Positions 47,336 through 51,057 of a stretch of DNA of 64,000 nucleotides are shown here, in pieces; within the stretch, counting starts at the first letter, position 1; each line of letters starts with the position of its first letter. The notes beneath the pieces are model-generated. The model ran no database searches, was not told where the DNA came from, and worked only from the letters and a program-made list of their open reading frames with translations. The stretch is from NCBI GenBank assembly GCA_944325865.1, contig CALVBS010000002.1, positions 124,001-188,000 on the forward strand, given 5' to 3'. A program made the position numbers and the translations under genes. This stretch comes from Candidatus Gastranaerophilales bacterium (GTDB taxonomy: Bacteria; Cyanobacteriota; Vampirovibrionia; Gastranaerophilales; Gastranaerophilaceae).

Positions 47336-48256
47336 ATGAAATTAATCGGTGAAAACATACACATTATTTCGAAGAATGTTCAAAAAGCCCTTCTTGAAAA
47401 GGATAAAGAGTATATTACCTCCCTGATAAATATCCAGAAAAATATGGATTATGCTGATTTGAACGCAGGTCCTGCCAAGGGAAATTTCGCAGGAATTCTG
47501 CAATGGCTTGTCGAGCTTGTTCAGGAGAACTCAAATCTTAAAATATCACTTGATACAACCAATACGGATGAAATGACAAATGCACTTAAACTTTGTAAAA
47601 ATCCGCAGGATACTTTTTTGAACAGCACAAGTAAAGACGAACCAAGACTTGAAAAAGTTACAAATCTCGCCGCCGAATATAACAGCAATGTCATAGCACT
47701 GACATTGAGTAAAGAAACAGGCATACCAAAAACAGCAGACGGCAGATTAGAAATCGCATTTGAAATTTACGAAAAATGTATAGAAAAAGGAATCGAAAAC
47801 GAAAAAATTTATTTTGATCCGCTTATTTTGCCTGTATGCGTTGAACAATCACAAGCCGCAGAAGCATTGAATACCATAAAAATGCTTAAAGAGAGTTTTG
47901 ACCCTCAGGTTAATACTGTAATCGGGCTCTCTAATATTTCAAACGGATGTCCTCTTGAATTAAGACCTCTTATTAACAGAGTTTTTGCGGTTCTGGCATT
48001 CGGAGCAGGCCTTGATGCAGCTATAATTGATGCAAAAGATACCGAACTTTACAGGGTGTTAAGAATGCTTGAAACTTCAACTCCTGAAAAAGAAGTTGAT
48101 AAACTCTACATTGATATTGCCTCAATGATATCCGACTTTGGAGAAATTGAAGACATAAAATATAACTCCGAAGACACGGAACAAAACCAAATTATTAAGA
48201 CGGTTAATATTCTTTTAGGCAAAAAAATTTATTCTCACAGCTTTACACAAATATAA
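47336..48256 (+). CDS. Pterin-binding (DHPS-like) methyltransferase family protein
   Basis: A 306-residue TIM-barrel of the pterin-binding family, closest by eye to methyltetrahydrofolate:corrinoid methyltransferases (AcsE) and the folate domain of MetH rather than to dihydropteroate synthase. Key segments: MKLIGENIHI at the start, DLNAGP (about 42-47), SLDTTN (about 72-77), LNSTSKDEP (about 93-101), FDPLILPV near residue 162 and GLSNISNGCP near 200. It could transfer a methyl group from methyl-tetrahydrofolate to a corrinoid protein, but no corrinoid protein, MetH or acetyl-CoA synthase gene is adjacent. The TPR gene is 51 bases downstream. Start has no Shine-Dalgarno sequence; a TATGCT/TATAAC-type -10 lies close upstream, so the leader is very short or absent. 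Confidence 0.7.
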   Translation: MKLIGENIHIISKNVQKALLEKDKEYITSLINIQKNMDYADLNAGPAKGNFAGILQWLVELVQENSNLKISLDTTNTDEMTNALKLCKNPQDTFLNSTSKDEPRLEKVTNLAAEYNSNVIALTLSKETGIPKTADGRLEIAFEIYEKCIEKGIENEKIYFDPLILPVCVEQSQAAEALNTIKMLKESFDPQVNTVIGLSNISNGCPLELRPLINRVFAVLAFGAGLDAAIIDAKDTELYRVLRMLETSTPEKEVDKLYIDIASMISDFGEIEDIKYNSEDTEQNQIIKTVNILLGKKIYSHSFTQI

Positions 48257-48295
48257 TTTTTTGCTAAAATACTGTTGTATAAATAAAAAGTTGTT

Positions 48296-48310
48296 AGGAG
48301 TAAGACAATT
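48296..48310 (+). promoter_or_regulatory. Shine-Dalgarno site pointing to an AUU start codon
   Basis: AGGAG (48296-48300) is followed after 7 bases by ATT (48308-48310), which opens the frame for a complete signal peptide. The nearest ordinary start, TTG at 48335, lacks a ribosome-binding site. Confidence 0.6.
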
Positions 48311-50653
48311 AATAAGAAGATAATCATATCAGCTTTGGTTTTATGCAGTATTTCAGCCTTATCAGTGCAGGCAGCAATGACTCCTGAGGCAAATACTTTA
48401 TATCAGGAAGCCTGTACCCTTGAATATCAGCATGATGCTCAAGGTGCCGTTGCAAAACTGCTTGAAGCAATTAAACTTGCGGGTGATGAAGCAATGCTTT
48501 ATACAAAACTTGCAGGTTTATACACAGACATGGATGAATATGACAAAGCTGTAGAAGCTTATAAAAAAGTTGTAACCCTCCGTCCTAATGATGCTTTCGT
48601 TTATATAAGCCTCGGAAATATTTATGAAACACAAAGCAAGTATGCCGAAGCCCTTGAGGCGTATAATGAAGCGTTGAAGATTTTTCCTGAATACAAATAC
48701 AATTATCTTAATATAGCAAATGTTCAGTATCAGATGAGAAAATATAAGGATGCAATAGAAAACTATAATCTGTTTTTATCCACTTACTCACAACATACTG
48801 ATGCAAGAAAAAGCCTTGCTAATTCATATCTTGCAGACAGTAACTACGAAAATGCAGCTGCAGAATACGAAAAATTATATATGAAAAATATGAAGACATT
48901 TGATAATTTTTCAAACTACGGCATGGCATTGTTCAAAATAAAAAATTATGAAAAGGCCGCAGAAATTTTGGAGCGGGCAATAGAAACAAATCCTGAAAGT
49001 ACAATAGATCATGTACGTCTTGCTCTGACATATCAGGAACTTGAAAAAAATGATCTTGCTCTGCCGCAATTTGAGGTTGTATTTGAACAGAATCCTAAAT
49101 TACAATGGCTGAGATTTGATTACGGAAATCTTCTTGCAGATATGGGCAAAAATACTGAAGCTCTTGAGCAGTATAATATTTATACCGCAAGTTTCCCTAA
49201 CGACGGCAGAGTTTATCAGAATTTAGGTATTGTCTATAAGAGATTAAAAAATTATAATATGGCAATAACAAATTTTGAAAAGGCTATTGCTTTGAATGCG
49301 GCGAATACGGATGCAAAAAAAGATTTAGCTTTTTGTTATCATATTCAAAAAGATTATAACAATGCCATTAAGTATTACGATGAAGTTCTGGCAGTTGACA
49401 ACAGTGACTACGGAACCAAGTTGAATAAAGCTATTGCCCTGCAGGCAATCCATAAATACGAAGATGCAATCAGCTTATATAATGAAATTATTGCGGATAA
49501 ACCCAGTGATATTGCACAGAACAATTTAACCGAAGCTCTGGTATCACAAGGATTGGAAGATTTAAAAATTCATAACTACTCGAAGGCAACCGACGAATTT
49601 ATTAAAGCCATTTCAAGAGGAACAAAAGACAGCAAGGCTTATTTTGGTCTGGCCCAAGCCTACAGAGCCTGCCAAATTAATGATAAGGCAACGGAATACT
49701 ATGAAAAAGCCATAGCAATGGCACCGGATAATACGGCATACAGCAACGAATTCGCAGAGTTTATTGCGGAAATTAATGCTGTGGAAGCCGAACAAAATAA
49801 AAATAAAGAATTTCCTACACTTTCCACATCGGAAGAACTTGACGAAATTACGCTTTCTATCGGGGAAGATTCAAAGACTTCTGCAACAGTAACACATCCT
49901 GCTGTAGCTGCAACAGCAGAAACAATCACAACCACAACTGCAACAGCGGCAGAAACGGGAGCAGGAGCCGTAACGGCAGCTGCGAGTCTAACGGATAATA
50001 AAACCGATACAACAGCCCGACCGGCAGTAAGTACAGAGAAACAGGACTTACAAGAAGAAATTGATACTGAAAGTGATACAGCGGCTGCAAAAGAAACCTC
50101 CGTTTCGACTGAAACTACAACGAAACCAACAAATAGTCCGGCTAATGTTGCGACATCAGCAAGTACCGATACAAATGCTGTCTCTGAACTTGAAAAAAGC
50201 AAAAGCCTTATTGCAATAGCAGATGAAAATTATAAAAAACAAAAATACGACGATTCAATAAAAAATTATAAAGAAGCTTTAAAAATAAATCCGAGCGATG
50301 AGGTTACTCTTTTAAAAATAGGCAATGTTTATAAAATAAAAAATGATGATACAAACGCCATAGATTTTTATAAAAAAGCAATATTTGTAAATCCGGCATA
50401 TGCTGACGGATGGTTTAACCTAGGGCTTGTTTACGCAGGTCAGAAGAAAGTTGAAGACAGTAAAAAATGTTTCAATAAAGTGGTTTCTCTAAATCCTGAG
50501 TACGCATATGCATATTATGCACTCGGACTTGCATATGAATCAGAAAAAAATACTCAGGAAGCATTAAAAAATTACGAACTTTTTGTTAAATACGGAAAAG
50601 ATTCAAAAACCGTTAATCAGGTAAAAGACAAAATTAAGAATATGACAAAATGA
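48308..50653 (+). CDS. Exported TPR-repeat protein with an apparent AUU start
   Basis: A 781-residue exported protein if read from ATT 48308: the leader NKKIIISALVLCSISALSVQA gives a normal signal peptide (two Lys, hydrophobic core, VQA cleavage), which a TTG start at 48335 would destroy. Residues about 30-480 hold about a dozen tetratricopeptide repeats of 34 residues (patterns such as DEYDKAVEAYKKVVTLRPND). Then comes a Thr/Ala-rich linker (about 520-625), probably extended, and three more repeats to the C terminus (YADGWFNLGLVYAGQKKVEDSKKCF). It is a scaffold for protein contacts in the periplasm or on the surface. The stop overlaps the next lipoprotein gene by 4 bases. Confidence 0.85.
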   Translation: MNKKIIISALVLCSISALSVQAAMTPEANTLYQEACTLEYQHDAQGAVAKLLEAIKLAGDEAMLYTKLAGLYTDMDEYDKAVEAYKKVVTLRPNDAFVYISLGNIYETQSKYAEALEAYNEALKIFPEYKYNYLNIANVQYQMRKYKDAIENYNLFLSTYSQHTDARKSLANSYLADSNYENAAAEYEKLYMKNMKTFDNFSNYGMALFKIKNYEKAAEILERAIETNPESTIDHVRLALTYQELEKNDLALPQFEVVFEQNPKLQWLRFDYGNLLADMGKNTEALEQYNIYTASFPNDGRVYQNLGIVYKRLKNYNMAITNFEKAIALNAANTDAKKDLAFCYHIQKDYNNAIKYYDEVLAVDNSDYGTKLNKAIALQAIHKYEDAISLYNEIIADKPSDIAQNNLTEALVSQGLEDLKIHNYSKATDEFIKAISRGTKDSKAYFGLAQAYRACQINDKATEYYEKAIAMAPDNTAYSNEFAEFIAEINAVEAEQNKNKEFPTLSTSEELDEITLSIGEDSKTSATVTHPAVAATAETITTTTATAAETGAGAVTAAASLTDNKTDTTARPAVSTEKQDLQEEIDTESDTAAAKETSVSTETTTKPTNSPANVATSASTDTNAVSELEKSKSLIAIADENYKKQKYDDSIKNYKEALKINPSDEVTLLKIGNVYKIKNDDTNAIDFYKKAIFVNPAYADGWFNLGLVYAGQKKVEDSKKCFNKVVSLNPEYAYAYYALGLAYESEKNTQEALKNYELFVKYGKDSKTVNQVKDKIKNMTK

Positions 50654-51057
50654 AAAAACTTATTTTAGCACTGACACTGTTAATTTTAACACTTACAACC
50701 TCAGCCTGCAACACTGATAAAGCGGCAATCCTTTTTAACAGAGATCCCATAACGGAAGAAAACGTACTTAATAACTCAACGATATTTGAACGTAATGAGA
50801 GAATTTATTATTTGATTTTGATGCCCAAAACAGTGCATTCAAGATACATTTATATACAGGTTATCAAAAAAGACAATGATTATGCACAATTAGGTTACAA
50901 ATTATACTGGGCAAACACATTCAGGTTAAAAGATGAACAGGTCAATTATTACAATGATTATATTGTACTTAATGAATCAGGAGCATATATAATGAAAGTT
51001 TACTCCAAAGATAATCCACAAAAAGTTTTAACACAGGCACAGTTTTTTGTCAGATAA
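50650..51057 (+). CDS. Small lipoprotein, unknown
   Basis: Not recognised. The 135 residues start MKKLILALTLLILTLTTSAC, a signal peptide with lipobox-like TSAC and Cys20, so it is probably lipid-anchored on the periplasmic side. The mature part (about 115 residues) is beta-rich with alternating Tyr: RIYYLILMPKTVHSRYIYIQVIKK, then YKLYWANTFRLKDEQVNYYNDYIVL and YIMKVYSKDNPQKVLTQAQFFV. The start overlaps the TPR gene by 4 bases, so the two are translationally coupled and likely partners. Confidence 0.6.
   Translation: MKKLILALTLLILTLTTSACNTDKAAILFNRDPITEENVLNNSTIFERNERIYYLILMPKTVHSRYIYIQVIKKDNDYAQLGYKLYWANTFRLKDEQVNYYNDYIVLNESGAYIMKVYSKDNPQKVLTQAQFFVR

Follow-up and report, generated by a model that had tools for sequence, protein, structure and literature searches.

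The window analysed here, a 64,000-nucleotide stretch on contig 2 of a 14-contig, 2.03-Mb draft genome of a Candidatus Gastranaerophilales bacterium, contains a gene for a TPR-repeat protein of 781 residues (48308..50653, + strand) that raises the question of where its translation begins. An in-frame TAA stop codon (48284-48286) is followed by AAA GTT GTT AGG AGT AAG ACA ATT AAT AAG AAG, and no ATG, GTG or TTG lies between this stop and the ATT at 48308-48310. The Shine-Dalgarno (SD) sequence AGGAG (48296..48300, + strand) precedes the ATT with a correct spacing of 7 nt, and from the ATT the frame reads I-NKKIIISALVLCSISALSVQA-AM, with a charged n-region followed by a hydrophobic core and then by an A-x-A-like cleavage site, before continuing into the TPR repeats. 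The first ordinary start codon of the frame is TTG 48335, which has no SD-like sequence ahead of it, and among ordinary starts with a 4-base SD match the best is codon 69 in the open frame, an ATG far inside the mature protein. There is thus no usable NTG codon that would give the full protein. The preliminary description of this DNA had placed the start at AUU, and the position of AGGAG, the signal peptide followed by TPR repeats in the ATT frame and the lack of a ribosome-binding site before TTG 48335 are all borne out. The draft assembly has no 16S gene and hence no anti-SD sequence of its own; in a 464-kb genome sample, SDs precede most long ORFs.

The TPR identity of the product is given by Pfam (TPR_1, E 8.7e-67), with a low-complexity Ser/Thr/Ala linker between two TPR blocks. 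Its putative signal peptide (48308..48373, + strand, I(fMet)NKKIIISALVLCSISALSVQA) was read by eye from an n/h/c pattern that is also present in relatives, and the protein is accordingly predicted to be exported. All NCBIfam equivalogs for named TPR families (MamA, PilW, PrsT and others) scored under their cut-offs, for example MamA with 180.9 against 200 and PilW with 136.9 against 154. A search of a phage collection gave no match. The TPR stop codon overlaps the start of a lipoprotein gene through ATGA (50650..51057, + strand, 135 residues, lipobox TTSAC). In most species the two genes overlap or abut in this way (ATGA or TAATG), and both the partner gene and the short overlap are conserved in the family. 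The lipoprotein has a conserved ILFN-type motif and matched no family in Pfam or NCBIfam. The upstream neighbour (47336..48256, + strand) resembles a methyltetrahydrofolate:corrinoid/iron-sulfur protein methyltransferase (NCBIfam PRK07535.1, 209.5 bits, under its 259 cut-off). The 3' end of this neighbour is overlapped by a promoter-like pair comprising a -35-like TTTACA (48242..48247, + strand) and a -10-like TAAAAT (48265..48270, + strand), with a spacer of 17 and located 37 nt upstream of the start. About 20 of the 33 species described below have, 25-37 nt before the start, a pair resembling TTTACA-17/18-TAAAAT, and its position therefore suggests a short leader of roughly 30 nt.

The ATT might have been an artefact of sequencing or assembly, or might have arisen from ATG by a recent mutation in this strain, since the two codons differ by one substitution and the 14-contig draft genome lacks a 16S gene. 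The preliminary description had set such an origin beside a regulated low-efficiency start and had proposed a comparison of 5' ends in sister genomes. A protein search found the TPR gene in 13 of 13 genomes of the genus, and the start codon is ATT in all of them except one, which has ATC; none has ATG. When each GTDB species was scanned through a single genome, 80 loci were obtained, of which 32 have ATT or ATC at the homologous place; the nearest named relatives were Candidatus Scatousia and Gastranaerophilales gut MAGs. Together with the window these make 33 species, 32 with ATT and one with ATC, although the TPR proteins are only about 38-86% identical. Since separate assemblies from many independent metagenome projects share the codon, an error or a recent mutation is refuted, and we assign it a negligible probability.

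In the 33 species the SD (AGGAG, GGGGG or GAGGG in relatives), the start codon and the A-rich codons after it are conserved together, with A always present at positions +4 and +7, which upholds the AUU as the start of the TPR gene. A phylogeny computed without the N-terminus places 32 of these 33 rows in one clade (SH-aLRT 100). L066 (ATT) and L067 (GTG) branch outside this clade, and the other side of the tree consists of 45 ATG rows and one TTG row. In the clade around the window AUU is kept without exception (ATT, once ATC).

A start further downstream, at TTG 48335 or ATG 48377, would leave the upstream codons untranslated; these are the only ordinary starts nearby, and a gene finder would pick one of them. 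The TTG has no SD, however, and the charged n-region and hydrophobic core encoded between the ATT and the ATG at the cleavage site are kept in the 33 species. When 72 distinct 5' ends were read upstream from the site to the first stop, for at most 15 codons, 51 showed no in-frame NTG, and in several species that stop is just 4-5 codons from the ATT (L040, TAG GGG GTA ATT ATC ATT; L046, TAA GGA GTT AAA AAA ATT). In 12 of these 51 the first downstream NTG is the ATG at the signal-peptidase site, the use of which would abolish export, and therefore no ordinary start could give an exported protein. A few species are ambiguous, because an ATG or TTG closely precedes the SD or overlaps it (L047, L049, g17, g22 and part of g18), and in the subgroup with GTA-ATT-ATC-ATT the adjacent ATC, of the same codon class, could be the start instead. 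A downstream start would also leave the frozen third base of the ATT (see below) unexplained, and we consider it very improbable. If translation does begin at AUU, gene finders restricted to ATG, GTG and TTG will truncate the TPR protein and drop its signal peptide, such that an exported protein looks cytoplasmic.

The behaviour of the codon itself is informative. On the tree its third base changed once, compared with 7-14 times at ten other Ile codons that are invariant in these proteins and use ATT, ATC and ATA, and with a median of 9 changes over 244 conserved columns. The site therefore behaves as a start codon rather than as an internal Ile codon, and these counts indicate that it is kept by selection across related species. 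Given that 55% of Ile codons in the TPR gene are ATT, the binomial probability of at least 32 ATT in 33 is 7e-8, a value that assumes independent rows, which these are not. Both the position of the ATT start and its selective maintenance are strongly supported by the comparison.

Nucleotide-level conservation of this kind might also have a cause unrelated to initiation: the bases could be held by an RNA structure or an overlapping frame, or as the binding site of a protein, for instance. No significant conserved RNA fold was found at the start (z -0.44), and an overlapping frame or a frameshift from upstream was rejected, there being no frame in another register common to the species. Furthermore, the ATT is free to change once an upstream ATG is available. 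In 6 of 10 rows whose ATG is a few codons upstream (ATG AAA ATN AAA AAG) the former ATT reads ATA or ATC, compared with at most 3 of 51 where it must be the start (Fisher p 2.6e-4 for 6/10 against 3/51; the rows are not independent, and the value is conservative in that L123 and L134, with ATT at the site, were entered as ATA). We consider a non-initiation cause extremely improbable, and return to selection on the AUU as a start.

Over the wider family the TPR gene was found in 119 of 146 genomes at E 1e-120. ATT starts occur in further genera, some of them distant (g2, g5, g7, g10, g12, g13, g17, g18, g27, g32, g35, g38 and g41). Other genera use ATG (g6, g14, g15, g16, g19, g20, g23, g24, g28, g29, g33, g34, g36, g40 and most of g8), GTG (g4 and g11) or TTG (g30 and most of g25), and AUU is therefore not irreplaceable over the whole family. 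A family-wide tree implies about ten changes between the ATT and NTG classes; this tree has no outgroup, as 117 genomes of the class yielded no homologue outside the family at E 1e-60. The make-up of the operon was considered as a reason for the AUU and rejected, because the ATG clades also have the TPR-lipoprotein pair. One locus, L254 (G129, genus g10), has GTT at the site (GAG GTT GTT ACG AAC AAG) where its sister species have ATT, which is either a possible GUU start or an assembly error. Some public MAG records titled uncultured Brachyspira or Acinetobacter (L036, L088, L096 and L110) carry a Gastranaerophilaceae TPR gene that falls inside the tree of that family, and their record names are probably wrong.

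The presence of ATG, GTG or TTG in several lineages, with no evident loss of the gene, is what would be expected if the AUU were a neutral relic, namely an old but adequate start that persisted with no selection for weakness. The codon must in any case remain a usable start at any level, and this requirement may alone explain the avoidance of ATA. However, ATG is a single T-to-G change away and was taken by no species in the 23-row subset around the window, while third positions elsewhere changed 7-14 times, and published surveys show selection toward AUG (PMC5622118). We therefore regard a neutral relic as unlikely, though of the alternatives it deserves the most weight. The reading that we prefer, and hold to be very probable, is that the AUU start is genuine and weak, possibly also sensitive to IF3, that selection has kept it, and that it limits expression of the TPR-lipoprotein pair.

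Initiation factor IF3 discriminates against AUU starts, and in our proposed mechanism this makes initiation weak. AGGAG would position the 30S subunit and fMet-tRNA would pair imperfectly with the AUU at 48308, giving a precursor that has fMet-Asn-Lys-Lys as its first residues and includes the whole Sec signal peptide. The SD, together with the A-rich codons that follow the start, would favour initiation despite the AUU, with IF3 discrimination keeping the level of TPR protein low. That initiation at the AUU is weak we consider highly likely, in view of the expression measured from an AUU start elsewhere (cvfC1 of S. aureus, PMC13009471). Because the TPR stop overlaps or abuts the lipoprotein start, the weak start may govern how much of either protein is made, with the lipoprotein also held low; coupling of the lipoprotein gene to translation of the TPR gene is probable. 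It is plausible that the TPR start is regulated, by IF3 or otherwise, and the level of both proteins may then vary with IF3 or free-ribosome status, as for infC. Whether sensitivity to IF3 is itself the selected property is more doubtful, and we put this at somewhat less than an even chance.

To our knowledge only a handful of genes outside infC have AUU starts. The infC gene, which encodes IF3, starts with AUU, AUC or AUA in E. coli and many other bacteria. The TPR gene shares with infC a non-canonical AUN start, a strong SD and long conservation. It differs in that the infC product discriminates against its own start and so regulates itself, whereas the TPR gene has no such direct loop, its product not being IF3 and infC lying elsewhere in the genome, and has NTG starts in other genera. 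In pcnB of E. coli, likewise a non-IF3 gene, the AUU start limits expression (Binns and Masters 2002, as cited in PMC13009471 and PMC1780047), but pcnB encodes a poly(A) polymerase, in a different phylum, that is not exported. The first gene of a staphylococcal operon, cvfC1 (AUU; S. aureus and other staphylococci), and ccpN (AUA) are also similar, with conserved AUU/AUA-type starts and strong SDs; conservation extends among Staphylococci and, for ccpN, to B. subtilis, and AUU or AUA starts with a strong SD gave about 10% of AUG expression when measured (PMC13009471). These genes are unrelated to ours and were verified experimentally, whereas the TPR start is known from sequence comparison.

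Two further cases concern misannotated genes. The sigR gene of Streptomyces has a conserved GTC start (32 of 34, with GTT in two species), was misannotated and is repressed by IF3 (PMC5472188). As in the TPR gene a rare start codon is kept across a genus, and the GTT of L254 is comparable to that of the two Streptomyces, but the codon is GTC rather than AUU and the product is the regulatory protein of a sigma/antisigma pair. In pncA (bbe22) of Borrelia burgdorferi, as proposed here, an AUU start restores a needed N-terminus; databases list a truncated protein, and the start was confirmed by structure and genetics (PMC13398362). This case differs in being one enzyme in one organism. A survey of 36 genome groups found one AUG-to-AUU switch among 61,358 ancestral AUG starts (PMC5622118), and a search of the literature on start codons in the order Gastranaerophilales returned nothing relevant. 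As judged by comparison, the TPR gene adds to the known rare kind of IF3-discriminated, non-NTG starts, and is distinct in its breadth of conservation, its predicted export as a protein other than IF3 and its natural ATG controls. A large bacterial clade has retained this AUU start, which also occurs in many genera of one family; with ATG lineages as built-in controls, the gene offers a comparative test case for the ways in which a weak start may be held by selection.

Only three genes stood out in the genome sample (464 kb, 357 long ORFs) as having a strong SD before AUU or AUA and no better NTG start, namely the TPR gene, infC and murI. The infC gene (L034, minus strand, G000 contig 1) starts at ATA 1752-1750 and reads AAGGAGATACAACA-ATA-GCTAACGAT. 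Across the family infC begins with AUA in most genomes read and with AUU or AUC in others, and hence this family does employ starts of the IF3-sensitive class. The glutamate racemase gene murI (L156, minus strand, 12356-11556, G000 contig 3) has no ATG, GTG or TTG before its conserved N-terminal motif, and seems to start at ATT ATT inside the overlapping 3' end of an upstream amidase-like gene. It was rejected as a clean second AUU gene and is only suggestive, as the ATT ATT falls on codons N-Y-F of the upstream gene and relatives vary. We tentatively raise the idea, which we rate as rather unlikely, that the Gastranaerophilaceae keep a small IF3-gated set of genes comprising infC (AUA/AUU), the TPR-lipoprotein pair (AUU) and perhaps murI, with output tied to the level of IF3 or free ribosomes. 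If so, the start codon by itself would tie envelope proteins to translational capacity.
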